Below, in pieces: positions 1 to 32,122 of a DNA stretch of 32,295 nucleotides. A model generated the notes under the pieces. The model ran no database searches. It worked only from the letters and a program-made list of their open reading frames with translations, and was not told the origin of the DNA. The position numbers and the translations under genes are program-made. The DNA is from Clostridia bacterium (lineage in GTDB: Bacteria > Bacillota > Clostridia > Oscillospirales > CAG-272): assembly GCA_017532025.1 (NCBI GenBank), contig JAFXJX010000006.1, forward strand, positions 1-32,295. The letters run 5' to 3'. Every line of letters starts with the position of its first letter. The first letter of the stretch is position 1.

Positions 1-114
1 GTACAGGGCGACGAGCAGTTTGAGATCGACGATAACCGCAGCCTTGACAAGATGTATAAAGATATTGAGAGCGAAGGTCTTCAGCCCGTTCTGAATGATT
101 ATCTCTACGTATAA
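1..114 (+). CDS. thiH: C-terminal end of 2-iminoacetate synthase ThiH (partial, start outside window)
   Basis: The first 37 codons are open from base 1 to a TAA at 112-114. The visible tail, with EQFEIDDNRSLDKMYKDI and a terminal LQPVLNDYLYV, resembles the end of ThiH, which typically has a Q-F-x-I-x-D-x-R-S segment followed by a G-x-x-P-V stretch close to the C-terminus. ThiH is a radical SAM tyrosine lyase that makes dehydroglycine for the thiazole half of thiamine. Its iron-sulfur motif lies outside the window, so the call rests on the tail and on the thiE and thiD genes directly downstream. The ribosome binding site of thiE overlaps the stop codon, which indicates one operon. HydG, a relative, ends in a Cys-rich tail that is absent here. 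Confidence 0.7.
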   Translation, partial: VQGDEQFEIDDNRSLDKMYKDIESEGLQPVLNDYLYV

Positions 115-124
115 GGAGAAGAAT

Positions 125-769
125 ATGAAAAGCTTTGATACAACACTTTACTTTATAACCGATTCCACGGGCTTTGCGGAAGATGAGTTCCTTCGCCGTG
201 TGGAAGAAGCAATCGCAGGCGGTGCGACCATCCTTCAGCTCCGTGAGAAGAACAAATCCACAATGGAGTATATAGACCTTGCGGAAAAAGTTCACGAGCT
301 GACGAAAAAATACAACGTTCCGCTGATTATTGATGACCGCATCGATGTAGCTCTTGCTGTGGGAGCAGAGGGGGTACACCTTGGAAAAGAGGATATGCCA
401 ATTGCAACCGCAGGAAGAATCCTTGGCGATGACTTTATTATTGGAGCGACTGCAAAAACTGTTCCGTGGGCAAAGGAAGCCTATGAGGATGGCGCTGATT
501 ACCTCGGTGTCGGTGCAATCTATCCGACCACGACCAAGGTAAAAACCGTTCTTACTTCTGTCGAAACACTCGCTGACATTTGCAAGGCTGTTCCGATCCC
601 CGTGAATGCCATCGGCGGGCTTAACAAAAACAACATAGACGTTCTCGCAGGCATTCCAATCGCAGGCATTTGTGTCGTTTCCGCTATTATGAAAGCCGAA
701 AGCCCTAAAACAGCAACGGTAGAGCTTAAGGCAAGAGCAAAGGAACTTGGAATTTATCACCGTTTTTGA
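125..769 (+). CDS. thiE: Thiamine-phosphate synthase ThiE
   Basis: ThiE joins HMP pyrophosphate to the thiazole phosphate carboxylate to give thiamine monophosphate in the cytoplasm. The 214-residue product is a typical TIM barrel of this family: LQLREKN in the pyrophosphate-binding region, DDRIDVALAVGAEGVHLG, IIGATAKT, the YLGVGAIYPTTTK loop, and VNAIGGLN and GICVVSAIM at the phosphate-binding end. The ATG at 125 was chosen over one at 95 because AGGAGA lies 6-7 bases upstream and the protein then begins at the family's usual point. It follows thiH by 10 bases and precedes thiD by 80 bases. The 80-base gap is longer than usual for this operon and holds nothing I recognise. Confidence 0.95.
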   Translation: MKSFDTTLYFITDSTGFAEDEFLRRVEEAIAGGATILQLREKNKSTMEYIDLAEKVHELTKKYNVPLIIDDRIDVALAVGAEGVHLGKEDMPIATAGRILGDDFIIGATAKTVPWAKEAYEDGADYLGVGAIYPTTTKVKTVLTSVETLADICKAVPIPVNAIGGLNKNNIDVLAGIPIAGICVVSAIMKAESPKTATVELKARAKELGIYHRF

Positions 770-849
770 AACAGCACAAATATAAAAGCGGCAGATTGGG
801 GGCACCACTCTCTGTCGCTCAAGAAAAAATAATGTTTAGGAGAAAGAAC

Positions 850-1647: not shown

Positions 1648-1672
1648 CCATGCTTGAAAGGAACCAACGAAA

Positions 1673-1811
1673 ATGAGAAACTATACAACATAAATGGATG
1701 GGTTGCAATATGCGCGAATAAGTTACATAACAGCCTTTCCGCAGAAAACTGACAAGCGAATGTCCTGCTATGATCGGTACAGTTCCCGTATATGACAGTG
1801 TGATCCATTAG
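1673..1811 (+). pseudogene. thiC: Decayed remnant of phosphomethylpyrimidine synthase ThiC
   Basis: Three short peptides in three frames match successive parts of clostridial ThiC. Block 1 (1673-1699) reads MRNYTT, stop, MD after an AAAGGA ribosome binding site; intact ThiC begins M-x-N-Y-T-T-Q-M-D, so the stop is a CAA to TAA change. Block 2 (about 1696-1746) reads GWVAICANKLHNSLSAE, like the conserved I-P-A-N-K-N-H-x-S-L-S segment. Block 3 (about 1734-1808) reads PFRRKLTSECPAMIGTVPVYD, like F-R-x-x-L-x-x-x-x-P-A-M-I-G-T-V-P-x-Y-D, then TAG. The order is that of ThiC and most of the roughly 430-residue gene is deleted. No intact ThiC can be made from this locus. The identification is from remembered family motifs, not from an alignment. 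Confidence 0.8.
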
Positions 1812-1820
1812 TTTCATGCA

Positions 1821-1856
1821 TAATAAAACACACCGCAAAAGCGGTGTGTTTTATTA
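1821..1856 (+). terminator. Rho-independent terminator after the thiamine operon (works both ways)
   Basis: A perfect 16-bp stem (TAATAAAACACACCGC with its complement at 1841-1856) encloses an AAAA loop and carries A- and T-rich flanks, so it can end thiED transcripts on the plus strand and transcripts of the zinc-ribbon gene coming from the right. Confidence 0.85.
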
Positions 1857-1884
1857 TGAAGACTAACCCTAATTTTAATACAAA

Positions 1885-24886: not shown

Positions 24887-27800
24887 ATGAAAAAACGATT
24901 CTATGCTGTCTCCAATGCACACTTGGACACGCAGTGGAACTGGACAATTCAGTACACCATCAGAAAATGCATAAAAAACACCCTTGAAGAAAACTTCCGT
25001 AATTTCAGACAAGCCCCTAAATATCTCTTCAACTTTGAGGGTGCTTTCCGATATAAATTGATGCAAGAGTATTATCCCAAGCATTATGACTTGGTGAAGA
25101 AGTATGTTGCTGAAGGCAGATGGCATCCCTGCGGTGCTTTCTGGGATTCCTGCGATGTCAACGTACCCTCCTCCGAGGCACTGATGCGTCAGGCTCTCCT
25201 TGGCAACAAATACTTTGAAAAAGAATTCGGTATATTCACAAAAGATATTTTCCTGCCCGACTGCTTCGGCTTCAGAAGTTCAATCCCTTCGATTGCCAAG
25301 CACATGGGACTTAACGGCTTTTCCACACAGAAACTCACATGGGGTGTCGGATGCCCGATCGTGAATGAAGACGGCAGTGTTTCCCGTCCGGAATTTGGCA
25401 AGCACAAACGCCTTGACCTCGGCAAATGGAAAGGTCCCGATGAATCTGAAATTTTCGTTGCCCTGAACGGTGGCACATATATCTATCAATTCCCGGAAGA
25501 AGAAACTCCCGTCAATCAGCGCGAGTGGATTCTCAAAGCCATCGAAAAGAATCAGGATATTTCCGGCTTTCCGTGGCGTTCGATGTACTTCGGCGTGGGT
25601 GACGAAGGCGGCGGCTGCTCTACCGAATGTGCCAAGATGGTATCCGATGCCGAGCTTTCCGATGACGGTCTTTACGAAGTCAAGAACGCTTACTCTTACG
25701 AAATCTTTGACGATCTCGAAAAAGAGGACACTTCCAAGATGCCCACCTACAAAGGTCATCTCCACATTCCCCACGGCTTTGGTGCGCTCACATCGCATAC
25801 CATCTCCAAGCGCTTCAACCGCCTTTGCGAAAACCTAGGCGATGCAGCAGAACGTGCCTCAGTGCTTGCCTCGGTTTATACCGACAAATCCTATCCGCAG
25901 GAAAGACTCAACGATGCTTGGAAAACCTTCTTGTGGCATCAGTTCCACGATTCTTAACCGGCACGTCGATCTGCGACGCGTACGTCTTCTCTCATAACGA
26001 CTATGCCATTGCGCTCAACCAGTTTGCCGCTGAGCTCGGCGCATCGGTAGAGGCTGTTTCTCAGCTGCTCGACACAAACGTTGACGGCACACCGATCGTA
26101 CTCTTCAACCAAACCGGCAAACAGCGCACCGCGACTGTAAAAGCTGATATTGCCGTTGACGGCGATTATGTAAAAGTCTTTGACGAAAACAATAACGAAG
26201 TTCCCTCACAGGTTTCGGTGATTGACGGTGTGAAGACCGTCATCTTCTCGGCAAAGGTTGACGCCGTTGGCGTTGCCGTTTATTCGGTCATTCCTTCTGA
26301 TACACCCTATGCCGGCGAAAACACACTCTCTGTCAGCGAAAACACACTTGAAAACAAATTCTACCGTGTTACCGTTAACGAAAACGGAGACATTTCCTCG
26401 GTATATGACAAAGAACTTGGCAAAGAGCTGCTCTCTGCGCCTTCCCGTCTTGAAATCTCGCCCGACAACAGTACCAATTGGCCCTCTTGGGAACTCTGCT
26501 TTGAAGATAACGCCCTTGAACACGCTTTCGTTAAAGATAACTGCAAGTGCGAGATCGTTGAAAACGGTGCCGCAGAAGTTGCACTCCGTATCACCCGCAC
26601 ATACGGCTCCAGCACATTCATTCAGACCGTTTCGCTTTCCGCCACCGAAAAAGTGGTTACTGTCGATAACTATGTCGATTGGTTCAGCCGCAACTCGCTT
26701 TTGAAAGCAACCTTCCCGCTCACGGCATCCAATCCTTATGCAGAATTTGATGTCGGTCTTGGCACAGATAAAGGTGAAAACACCACCACCTATCCCTATT
26801 TCCAGCACTGTGTTCACACCTACGCCGATCTCACCGACACAAGCGGCGACTTTGGCGTTGCTATCCTCAACGACTGCAAATACGGCATGGACAAGCCGGA
26901 TGACAACACCCTCCGCTTAACACTCATCCACACCCCGGTTGAGCCCTATGATAACGAAAAATCCAACCAGGACTGGCAGGATTTCGGTAGAAACGAATTC
27001 CGTTACGGCATCACTTCTCATAAGGGCGAACGCGACGGCGTAGCATTGATTGCCGACGAATTCAATAAACCGGTTCTCCCCTTTGTCACTGCAAAGCACA
27101 ACGGTAACGGCAAAAAGCTTTCTCTCATTGAATCCGATAACGCCGAAGTTCTCATTCGCGCTGTCAAAAAAGAAGAAGACGGTGACAGAATCATCGTTCG
27201 TCTGCAGGAAATGTCGGGCAAGGACACCGAAACCGAACTTCGCTTTGCTTGCCCCATCGATTCCATTGTGGAAACCGACGGCTATGAAAGAGAGATTGCA
27301 CCCATCGCAACAAACGACAATACAACCAAGATCGCACTCTCTCACTTCGCACCTAAGACCTTTGCCGTAACACCCAAGCAAGAAAAAACTTCGCTTGGCA
27401 GAATCTATACCCCCATTGAGCTTCCCTATTCGCACAAGATCACAACCGAAAACGGTCTTTTCGATTCCGATTTTGACGTAGCCATTCCTGCTGAATTGTT
27501 CGTCAAAAACATCACCTCTTCTGGCGTTCCGTTCGTCATGGGTGATGCCGATAAAAACAATGCCGTTCTTTGCGATGGGCAGACACTCAAGCTTCCTTGT
27601 GGTGCAAAGAAGCTCTATATTCTTGCCGCGATTCACGAAGGAACAGGTCCTTGCGAATTCCAAAAAGACGGAAAAGGACCTCACTCTTATCAGGTTTCCA
27701 ATATGTATCAGAACGTTGGAACTTGGGATATGATCGCCAAAGCCAACACCTGCTACCTCAACCGCGATGAGATCGCTCACGTTTATACCCACACCCACGA

Positions 27801-28617
27801 TAAACGCGGCGATAAGGTATATGAATTTGCCTATCTCTTCAAGTATTCCCTCAATGTTGAAGGCGTTAGCGAGATCACACTTCCCAAGGGCAAAGAAATG
27901 CTCCTGTTTGCCGCGACCGCTTCCACTTCGGATTCCTCCACGCTTGACGTTTGGCCGCTTTATCCCATTGCCGAGAAATCCTACAAGCCGACCCACACCA
28001 TCACCGTAGAAGATACCGACATCAAACTTACCATGCAAGAAGGCAATTACGCGCTGATCACAGCGCCTGATAATGATCCCAATTCCCTGTTTGACTCTTG
28101 GGTAGGTGATGCTGTTAAGACAACCAACGGCATGGTCGCTTTGGTATGTATGCCCGAAGAAGATGCGACTCTTTCGATCAAACGCCGTTATCTTGGCACC
28201 AACCTCACTTACAAAAAGCCTGCGACAGCAAGCAATTCTGAAAACGAGGATGAAACACCCGATCATGCCGTCAACGGTATCTATGATCAAAAATGGTGCT
28301 CGCCAATCGACGAAAAAGGCGCGTATATGGACGTTGACCTTGGAAAGGCTTATACCGTCAACCGCTGGCTCGTCAAGCACACAGGTAAGATCGAAGGTAG
28401 CGGATGGAACACCAAGGAATTTGCGCTTCAGTACAAAGTAAATGAAACCGATGAATGGACACTCGCCGATCAAGTAACAGACAATAAAGATGATATCACA
28501 CTCCGCGATATCGAGCCTATCACCGCAAGATATGTTCGTCTCTTTGTGACCAAAGCCGGTCAAGATGATGACGAAAGTCATGTCCGTATCTACGAGTTCT
28601 CTGTTTTTGAAGCTTAA
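24887..28617 (+). CDS. GH38 alpha-mannosidase with C-terminal discoidin-like domain, interrupted by a one-base deletion near 25955
   Basis: The gene reads in frame for 356 codons to a TAA at 25955-25957 and continues in another frame to 28617. One T restored in CACGATTCTTTAACC joins them as HQFHDSLTGTSI, the family's H-Q-F-H-D-x-x-x-G-T-S-I motif, giving about 1243 residues. GH38 features: AHLDTQWNW at 11-19 (His12, Asp14 metal ligands), DCFGF with nucleophile Asp125, MYFGVGDEGGG, and the metal His354. Large beta domains follow, and the last 135 residues (NLTYKKPATASNSENE onward) are a discoidin (F5/8 type C) domain ending YVRLFVTKAG. There is no signal peptide, unusual beside a carbohydrate-binding domain. 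As read, a protein missing the beta domains would be made. Confidence 0.88.
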
Positions 28618-28766: not shown

Positions 28767-30377
28767 ATGAAGAAATTATCCCTGTTTCTGCTTTTAGCGC
28801 TTCTTGTTGCGCTTATGTTTACCGTATCTTGCGGTAGCACCAACACACCGTCAGAAACAACTGCCCCCTCCTCATCTTCGGCAGATAGTTCCGGCGTTTC
28901 AACAACAACCACTACCACAGCACCTATCACCACCACCGCCACCACAACGGCAACCGTCACCACACAAGCACCCAACACCACATCAAAACCCACAGTAAAG
29001 GCTGAGCCCGTCAAACTGCTCACCTTCAACCTTCGCTACGACATCACAAGCCATGAATTGATGTCTCTTGAAGTTCGCGGCCCTCACCTGATGGAAATCA
29101 TTAAGAAATATGATCCCGATTCGATCAGCTTCTGCGAAGCCACCAATAACTGGATGAAATACTTGCGTGAAGAAATGCCCAAGCTTGGCTACAGCTGTGT
29201 CGGCGTTGGCCGTGATTCAGGCGCCACAGGCGGCACAGGCAACGGCAACGAACATTCCCCTGTTTTCTATAAAACAGATAAGTATGAATTGCTCGAATCC
29301 GATACATTTTGGATTTCTGACACCCCCGAGGTTGCAGGAAAAGCATGGGGCACCTCCATTAAGCGTATCTGTAGCTATGCCGTTTTGAAAGACAAGAACA
29401 CAGGCGCAAGCTACGCTCACTTCGGTACGCACCTTGACCACCAGAGCGAAGAAGCTCGTCAAAACGCAGCTCTCGTCATTGAATCTTACATCCGCGAAGT
29501 GTTGAAAAAATACGGTGATATCGGCATCGTACTTTCCGGCGACTTTAACACCTCTATGTCCTCCACGGCATATCTCTCGTTTACATCTTTCCTGGATGAC
29601 TCCAGAAGCATTGCCAAAGAAAAGAAGGTAGTCGGCATCACCACCAACAGCTACCGTCCGAACGAATGGGAAAGCAGTTCCTCCTCCGGCAAAACTCCCA
29701 CCGTTGGCACCGGTTCTCCCATTGACTATATATTCCTTGGCAAGAATACCGCTTCGGTTTCGGTTTACACAGTCGTTAACGATCTTTTCACCTTTGAGCA
29801 TAACGGAAAAACATGGCATGAGCATCCGATATCCGACCACTACGGTGTTTTCTGCGAAGCAACCTTTACCTCTCCCACTGCCAATTTACCCTACAGCGAA
29901 AACAAACTCATTACCTATCGCGCAGAGTATGCTCCTTCTGCAACACTTCCCTCTTCCTACGAAGGCTTGTCTATCATCAACGACCGTTTTTCAGTCTCCT
30001 GTAATTTGTTGGCAGTCAAGCCGATTTCCAATGTTTTAACAGACGATTCTTCGGTCGGATCTGTGATGGTATCAGGTAACAAAAACGGCGTTTGGGAAAT
30101 CACTCTGTCTACCGATACGACTACGGAAATCCAAGGTCTTTCCTTTACCACCGGTACGGCAGCCACTAAGCTTCCGCAAATGCTTCGCGTCTACGTTTCA
30201 AATGACGGAAGCTCATGGAAGCGCATGGGTAGCGTATACACCGATGAAATTGAAGCCTCTACCACGTATTATCTCTCTAACCTTTCCACCAGAGTCCGCA
30301 CAAAATACGTAAAGCTCGTTTTCTCCGATTGCGACAGAAGCGTTGAACTTGCGAATATTAACATTTACGGACAATAA
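28767..30377 (+). CDS. Lipoprotein with endonuclease/exonuclease/phosphatase (EEP) domain and discoidin-like C-terminus (first of a tandem pair)
   Basis: The 536-residue protein has a lipoprotein signal (lipid Cys at residue 22, TVSC), then a linker to about residue 80 made almost only of Thr, Ser, Pro and Ala. The EEP domain (about 82-368) has all key residues: TFNLR (86-90), Glu124 in SFCEATNNW, GTHLDH (220-225), SGDFN (257-261), IDYIF (319-323) and SDHYG (356-360), so a Mg-dependent phosphodiesterase or phosphatase is expected. Residues about 400-536 form a beta domain with WEITLSTDTTTEIQGLSF and LRVYVSNDGSSWKRMGSVY, like F5/8 type C carbohydrate-binding domains. It should sit on the outer membrane face. 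Substrate unknown: nucleic acid, phospholipid or sugar phosphate. AAAGGAAAGG precedes the ATG. Confidence 0.88.
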   Translation: MKKLSLFLLLALLVALMFTVSCGSTNTPSETTAPSSSSADSSGVSTTTTTTAPITTTATTTATVTTQAPNTTSKPTVKAEPVKLLTFNLRYDITSHELMSLEVRGPHLMEIIKKYDPDSISFCEATNNWMKYLREEMPKLGYSCVGVGRDSGATGGTGNGNEHSPVFYKTDKYELLESDTFWISDTPEVAGKAWGTSIKRICSYAVLKDKNTGASYAHFGTHLDHQSEEARQNAALVIESYIREVLKKYGDIGIVLSGDFNTSMSSTAYLSFTSFLDDSRSIAKEKKVVGITTNSYRPNEWESSSSSGKTPTVGTGSPIDYIFLGKNTASVSVYTVVNDLFTFEHNGKTWHEHPISDHYGVFCEATFTSPTANLPYSENKLITYRAEYAPSATLPSSYEGLSIINDRFSVSCNLLAVKPISNVLTDDSSVGSVMVSGNKNGVWEITLSTDTTTEIQGLSFTTGTAATKLPQMLRVYVSNDGSSWKRMGSVYTDEIEASTTYYLSNLSTRVRTKYVKLVFSDCDRSVELANINIYGQ

Positions 30378-30553: not shown

Positions 30554-32122
30554 ATGAAGAAAAAACCGCTACTCACGCTTATCGCTCTCGCCATACTGAC
30601 GCTTATCTTCTCGGTTGGTTGTGACACCAACCAATCAAACAACCCGATTCAAACACAAACAACAACCGATACCGTAGCCGTCACACAACCTGTCGCACCC
30701 AAAGTAACAACCCCTTCCTCCACAACTGAAACACAAGAACCGTTATCGCTCAGGCTGATGACCTTCAATTTGCGTTTTGATACCACAAGCCATCCTTGTA
30801 TGTCTACCGAAGTACGTGGTGCACACCTGATGGAGATCATCAAAAAGTACATGCCCGACTCCATCAGCTTCAATGAAGCAACAAATAATTGGATGAACTA
30901 CTTGAATGAACAGATGACAGAATTGGGGTATAGCCATGTAAGCAGTGGACTGTCTTCCGTTCAAACGTATCCATTGCCGACAGGACTTGATAACAGACAA
31001 CAAAATCCCATTTTCTATCAATCTGCCAAGTATGAGCTTCTTGAATCGGATACGTTTTGGCTCTCGGAAACCCCGGAGCTTAACGGTTCTGTTTCGTGGG
31101 ATTCGTCCTGTGTACGTATTTGTACTTATGCCGTTTTGAAAAACAAAGAAAGCGGTGCAATCTATGCACACTTTGGAACACATTTGGACCACATCAGCGA
31201 AGAGGCTCGTCAAAACAGCATTCTCGTCATAGAATCGTATATCCGCGCCACATATAAAAAATACGGCGAAATCGGGATCGTGCTGTCTGGCGATTTTAAC
31301 GATACCAACCAATCCACAACCTACAAATCCATTATTTCATTTATGGATGATGCCTCAACTCTCGCAGAAACCAAGTTAGTTGTCGGAGCCACCGCCAACG
31401 GGTATAGCCCCGATCAATGGGAAGAAAACTACGCCGGCACTAAAAAGCCAACTGTTGCGGCTTCATCACCCATTGACTATATTTTCCTTGGCAAAAAAAC
31501 AGCTTCGGTTTCGGTTTACACCGTTGTCGACGATCTCTTCACTTTCGACTACAACGGAAAAACCTGGACAGATCATCCTATATCCGACCATTATGGCGTT
31601 TTTTGCAAAGCAATCTTCACTTCCCCCTCACAAAGTATAACCTATGATGAAACCCGATTACCGTACCGCAGCACGATTGTATCATCTCAAACGTCACCTT
31701 CCTCTTTTGAAGGTTTATCTGTTATCAACGATCGATTTAACATCTCGTCATCTCTCTTTGAAACCAAACCCATTGGTAATCTTTTCAAAAATGATGACTC
31801 TGTCGCTTCGATTCGTGTTGGAGGCAACAAACACGGAGTTTGGATAATAACGCTCACCGCTGATGCTCTCACCGAAATCAAAGGAATCTCCTTTACCACA
31901 GGCCAATCTTCGCCGACCACACCTCACACCCTTCGTATTTTTATTTCGAACAACGGAACATCCTGGTTGCAATTGGGCAAAGTTTACGCCGAAGATTTGG
32001 CTGCCTCAACCACATACTATATCTCGCTCGCCTCCCGAGTGCGTACCGATCAAATTAAGATTATATTCTCCGATTGTGTCAATCACACTGAGCTGACCAA
32101 CCTGACCGTATACGGAAAATAA
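30554..32122 (+). CDS. Lipoprotein with EEP domain and discoidin-like C-terminus (second of a tandem pair)
   Basis: A 522-residue paralog of the preceding protein in the same domain order: lipoprotein signal with lipid Cys at residue 23 (SVGC), a Thr/Gln/Pro-rich linker to about 62, EEP domain (about 65-355) with TFNLR, Glu108 in SFNEATNNW, GTHLDH (208-213), SGDFN (245-249), IDYIF and SDHYG (344-348), and a discoidin-like C-terminus (about 385-522). Long stretches are nearly the same in both (VRGAHLMEIIKKY, ASVSVYTVV, HPISDHYGVF), while the linker and the surface loop after GYSHV differ, the loop here (SSVQTYPLPTGLDNRQQ) lacking the Gly-rich run of the first copy. It has its own promoter and terminator. 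All catalytic residues are kept, so both should be active. AAGGAG precedes the ATG. Confidence 0.88.
   Translation: MKKKPLLTLIALAILTLIFSVGCDTNQSNNPIQTQTTTDTVAVTQPVAPKVTTPSSTTETQEPLSLRLMTFNLRFDTTSHPCMSTEVRGAHLMEIIKKYMPDSISFNEATNNWMNYLNEQMTELGYSHVSSGLSSVQTYPLPTGLDNRQQNPIFYQSAKYELLESDTFWLSETPELNGSVSWDSSCVRICTYAVLKNKESGAIYAHFGTHLDHISEEARQNSILVIESYIRATYKKYGEIGIVLSGDFNDTNQSTTYKSIISFMDDASTLAETKLVVGATANGYSPDQWEENYAGTKKPTVAASSPIDYIFLGKKTASVSVYTVVDDLFTFDYNGKTWTDHPISDHYGVFCKAIFTSPSQSITYDETRLPYRSTIVSSQTSPSSFEGLSVINDRFNISSSLFETKPIGNLFKNDDSVASIRVGGNKHGVWIITLTADALTEIKGISFTTGQSSPTTPHTLRIFISNNGTSWLQLGKVYAEDLAASTTYYISLASRVRTDQIKIIFSDCVNHTELTNLTVYGK

Follow-up and report, generated by a model that had tools for sequence, protein, structure and literature searches.

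Within the window, by which we mean the whole 32,295-base stretch of DNA analysed here, positions 1673–1810 very probably represent a recent thiC pseudogene, the last member of a thi operon; the capacity to make HMP-P would have been lost at this place, with uptake of thiamine through ThiT as the most likely alternative supply. The pyrimidine half of vitamin B1 is the product of ThiC, and loss of the thiC gene is a usual route to dependence on this vitamin, albeit one that is mostly deduced from absence; here, the steps of the loss can be read, namely, which bases have gone, how recently, and how repeatedly the same operon position has been hit. In the scheme that we propose, an ancestral operon of order (S-F-G-)H-E-HAD-D-C would have had its thiC broken by a stop at codon 7 (CAA to TAA), by deletions of 97 and 166 bp, and by loss of everything beyond base 401; a deletion of ~607 bp would have taken a HAD-phosphatase gene from the same operon, and the cell would have come to import thiamine via ThiT, the use of HMP through ThiD and ThiE being an option.

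Genomic setting and operon organization

The source genome (G000) is an uncultured gut-type Clostridia MAG of 2.0 Mb in 108 contigs and is 80% complete; the window makes up contig C19, or at any rate the first 32,295 bases of that contig. Its closest ThiD neighbours belong to MAGs named Clostridia or Oscillospiraceae, many of them from ruminant guts, and the ThiD of the window is 89% identical to that of locus L113. The gene order runs from the 3' end of thiH through thiE and thiD to the thiC remnant, with the following features:

1–113, forward strand: 3' end of thiH (final 37 codons and stop), truncated at the contig edge; reads VQGDEQFEIDDNRSLDKMYKDIESEGLQPVLNDYLYV and resembles the C-terminal end of ThiH from L062 and L063
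125–769, forward strand: thiE, thiamine phosphate synthase (TIGR00693, 215.6 bits, over cut-off; dN/dS 0.04–0.05)
753–786, forward strand: 3' end of the deleted HAD-phosphatase gene (ITVFETAQI-stop), from spliced alignment to L114, L116, L119 and L123
850–1647, forward strand: thiD, HMP/HMP-P kinase, intact (TIGR00097, 343.9 bits, over cut-off; dN/dS 0.07–0.12)
1657–1663, forward strand: ribosome-binding site AAAGGAA of the lost thiC, conserved in the thiD–thiC spacer of relatives
1673–1700, forward strand: thiC piece 1 (thiC bases 1–28), containing the codon 7 stop; spliced alignment
1701–1729, forward strand: thiC piece 2 (thiC bases 126–154; VAICANKLH); spliced alignment
1730–1810, forward strand: thiC piece 3 (thiC bases 321–401; QPFRRKLTSECPAMIGTVPVYDSVIH), with the remainder of the gene missing beyond it; spliced alignment, BLAST and tblastn
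1819–1858, forward strand: perfect 18-bp inverted repeat, terminator-like, at the present operon end

The first-pass annotation had placed the remnant after an 'otherwise live' operon with undamaged ThiH, ThiE and ThiD. This holds for ThiD; the C-terminus of ThiE, however, is altered, and only the last 37 codons of thiH lie in the contig. Nor can the operon as a whole be called live, given that its HAD gene is deleted and that the assembly lacks both thiG and the 5' portion of thiH. Since the contig breaks inside thiH, thiSFG may sit in the missing fifth of the genome.

The thiC remnant

Spliced alignment of the remnant, with jumps allowed, to nine intact thiC genes gives three pieces that are, as had been proposed, in order and in three frames, and that are interrupted by stops. 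Eight of the nine genes yield identical breaks; the most diverged, from G095, moves the second break by a few bases. Relative to the intact genes, 97 and 166 bases are missing internally, both deletions being frameshifting, together with at least 904 bases at the 3' end, such that only ThiC residues 1–9, 43–51 and 108–133 are covered and ~90% of the gene has gone. The stop described earlier at codon 7 is present (TAA at 1691–1693, where the relatives have CAA or CAG), and the ribosome-binding site, reported as intact, is indeed common to the relatives. One detail requires revision: of the block given as ANKLHNSLSAE, the ANKLHN part stands (properly VAICANKLHN), whereas SLSAE is thiC from base 321 onward read out of frame, a stretch that gives QPFRRKLTSE in the ThiC frame.

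The spliced score of the remnant is 153, compared with a maximum of 32 both for 300 dinucleotide shuffles and for 200 other stretches of the window. By BLAST, piece 3 matches the thiC of one relative with 93% identity (E 1.3e-27), and the thiD–thiC junction (1650–1700) matches another relative with 94% identity (E 4.7e-16); by tblastn, 26/26 residues of piece 3 are identical to several intact ThiC proteins. Piece 3 alone scores 10.8 bits against PF01964 (cut-off 25), and a Pfam scan of the joined remnant peptides matched nothing, because the pieces are too short for the model. The locus is collinear with intact thiC, occupies the orthologous position and carries disabling changes, as expected of a pseudogene, and, on this sequence evidence, we regard 1673–1810 as confirmed to be a true thiC fossil.

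ThiC (PF01964) is a radical SAM HMP-P synthase. Nothing is left at the locus after thiC base 401 of 1305, and the C-terminal cysteine motif for the iron-sulphur cluster is therefore gone; since a broken ThiC would lack both the barrel and this motif, synthesis of HMP-P from AIR should be impossible here, judging from what ThiC does. As for the cause of the deletions, slippage between short repeats was rejected, as the two internal junctions share no bases when compared with the intact genes.

Across the 44 remaining codons, the remnant differs from seven intact thiC genes by 0–2 amino-acid changes per ~102 non-synonymous sites (the codon 7 stop being set aside), and by 11–23 silent changes per ~27 sites; the one disabling substitution seen corresponds to a 95% upper limit of ~4.7 changes per 102 sites. 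As the divergence is almost wholly silent, nearly all of it would have been gathered while thiC still worked; on these counts, the loss appears recent when set against the divergence from the relatives compared. The earlier reading of the decay as recent, with the gene retained in relatives, is thereby borne out: in their orthologous operons, an intact thiC lies ~25 bp 3' of thiD.

The position after thiD in related genomes

Among 80 named loci picked by ThiD similarity, the position after thiD holds thiC in 51, cytX in 11, tenA in seven, a thiC stub in four and nothing recognized in seven. The 51 thiC genes comprise 44 that are full-length or nearly so, five that are cut by a contig edge and two that are frameshifted; L146 and L182 have nearly full-length thiC with one frameshift each, which is either early decay or sequencing error. 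The four stubs retain the following parts:

L118, after thiD: thiC 1–61
L130, after thiD: thiC 1–106 and 1108–1132
L157, after thiD: thiC 1–26
L172, after thiD: thiC 1–107 and 1210–1305

The 5' end is retained in all four, and their break points differ. In a ThiD tree, L118 pairs with the intact L120, and L172 with the intact L163; the window and the four stubs require five separate changes, at least three of them forced by well-supported branches, a count that is approximate, as the tree represents one gene, possibly moved between lineages, and has many open forks. Decay of thiC at this operon position is, by the sequences compared, apparently recurrent. In the five stub genomes, neither intact ThiC nor CytX was found. 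Moreover, in 41 genomes chosen by slot type, for which the P-value is descriptive, ThiC and CytX over cut-off (12 genomes each) never occur together (Fisher p 0.008). Across the family, PF01964 is present in 52 of 395 sampled genomes, and in 29/171 of the better ones.

It seems to us rather likely that the terminal position of the thi operon, directly behind thiD, serves as an interchangeable 'HMP source' slot that can hold thiC (to make), cytX (to import) or tenA (to salvage), and from which thiC has been lost repeatedly and independently; the window would be one such loss, with nothing yet replacing the gene. As the slot is filled elsewhere by a transporter or a salvage enzyme, whether loss or replacement comes first is testable by comparative genomics, and the repeated loss or exchange of this one operon position is the part worth following. 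A separate observation concerns the start of tenA in L113 and L114 (ATGAAATTGACAACTCAAATG): the ACAACTCAAATG within it also opens certain thiC genes, either by chance or as a vestige of gene replacement at this position.

A second loss from the operon

In relatives such as L114, L116 and L119, a HAD-phosphatase gene stands between thiE and thiD; this gene is deleted in the window, where 607 bases are missing between thiE and thiD relative to L114, whereas the adjoining spacer and thiD start (787–870) are identical at 83 of 84 positions. The last four residues of ThiE (YHRF) are the HAD tail read out of frame, which accounts for its altered C-terminus. The gene is also absent from L122, L124 and L129, relatives with an intact thiC, so its loss need not be tied to that of thiC. 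HAD enzymes are reportedly able to supply a phosphatase step of thiamine diphosphate synthesis, and, from its operon position, the deleted gene may have encoded the TMP phosphatase of the pathway. The likeness to the HAD phosphatases of thiamine pathways described by Hasnain et al. (2016; cited in PMC5627462) lies in the location of such a gene within a thi operon; the window differs in having the 3' end only. Constraint is still apparent in both thiE and thiD (dN/dS 0.04–0.12), although they may have been released too recently for decay to show.

Thiamine supply and alternative explanations

The assembly contains neither ThiG nor the 5' part of thiH, and no ThiM, TenA or CytX was found in it; as it is 80% complete, these absences are probable, not certain. 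A single TPP riboswitch was found in the genome, and it precedes a gene that scores over the ThiT cut-off. With ThiT under a TPP riboswitch, and no CytX or TenA, uptake of thiamine is likelier than uptake of HMP, and we infer that the TPP need is most likely met by thiamine imported via the riboswitch-controlled ThiT. The first-pass annotation had argued from partial loss of thiamine synthesis to dependence on outside HMP. The loss of thiC is upheld, no other ThiC being found in the assembly, but outside HMP is one option, and ThiT points instead to thiamine; likewise, the proposed search for HMP transporters did not find CytX in the assembly and found ThiT instead.

HMP obtained from outside and processed by ThiD and ThiE may nonetheless be the source. 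Here, the loss of thiC would be real, and a transporter or salvage enzyme encoded in the fifth of the genome missing from the assembly would feed the two enzymes, both of which are intact and constrained; two congeners provide models, G004 having CytX under a TPP riboswitch and G006 having TenA. A variant that retains thiD and thiE ('Ah') has, moreover, been described among HMP auxotrophs of the human gut, where it accounts for 199 of 2,228 genomes, and 97% of the HMP auxotrophs have a candidate HMP transporter (Rodionov et al. 2019, PMC6593275). Like 'Ah', the window has thiD and thiE kept and thiC lost in a gut bacterium; unlike 'Ah', no CytX or TenA was found here, thiG is absent from the assembled sequence, and what remains of the lost gene can still be read. 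The absence of both proteins from the assembled 80%, the further loss of the HAD gene and the presence of ThiT make us consider an HMP-fed cell unlikely, if still the likeliest of the alternatives. A similar comparison can be drawn with the available part of a report on Roseburia inulinivorans, in which thiC was not detected and cytX is present (PMC7478625): in both cases, thiC is missing from a gut Clostridia lineage with HMP-making relatives, but there cytX covers the loss, whereas no replacement was found here; that part of the report makes no mention of a pseudogene. HMP auxotrophy by loss of thiC is, accordingly, already known, and the window is a fresh case of it. In a literature search that covered a minority of subscription papers, no paper joined thiC, cytX, tenA and the operon, which is weak evidence.

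A second possibility is that another thiC elsewhere in the genome allowed this copy to decay, with no auxotrophy. The genome being a MAG, 80% complete and in 108 contigs, another thiC could indeed be missing from view; an extra full or partial copy occurs in G452 and G422, and thiC lies away from this thiD in G436; the intact thiC of the 98% complete congener G003 belongs to a different ThiC lineage and sits in a different operon (order thiC-thiM-thiE-thiD). Such extra or displaced copies are, however, rare (3/41 genomes), and the assembled 80% of G000 has no PF01964 match to represent a functional ThiC, so redundancy appears improbable. Less probable still is an assembly artefact, in which the deletions and the stop would stem from a bad consensus and the thiC of the organism would be intact. 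A MAG with a contig end 1.7 kb away invites this suspicion, as does a one-base frameshift near 25.95 kb in another gene of the window, which indicates that single-base errors are possible; a faulty consensus would nevertheless have to produce three separate breaks and a stop, as well as a fourth deletion, that of the HAD gene, in the same operon, while leaving no thiC fragment anywhere else in the assembly, and comparable thiC stubs, broken at other points, occur in four other MAGs. Finally, retention of the pieces for a function of their own, for example, as a regulatory RNA or small protein, is scarcely credible: pieces 2 and 3 are nearly unchanged at the protein level, but recent loss accounts for this, the pieces are spread over three frames and broken by stops, there is no Rfam match, and the other stubs retain different parts of thiC.

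Other features of the window

AGGGGGTGCA occurs five times within 1885–1974, once inverted and four times in direct orientation, with spacings of 20, 20 and 21 bases (two helical turns) between the direct copies. The left part of this repeat recurs in the same genome at G000:C88:6504 (89%), and a diverged copy is present in a congener (G001:C179; 77%), which identifies it as a dispersed element. It was rejected as the agent that removed the 3' end of thiC, as it lies beyond the terminator-like hairpin at 1819–1858. At 24887–28617, the one-base shift near 25.95 kb divides the gene for a GH38 alpha-mannosidase carrying an F5/8 domain between two reading frames; this shift is either a true mutation or an assembly error. 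The adjoining proteins encoded at 28767–30377 and 30554–32122 are evidently paralogous; the former has an endonuclease/exonuclease/phosphatase domain (PF03372) together with a sub-threshold F5/8 type C match.
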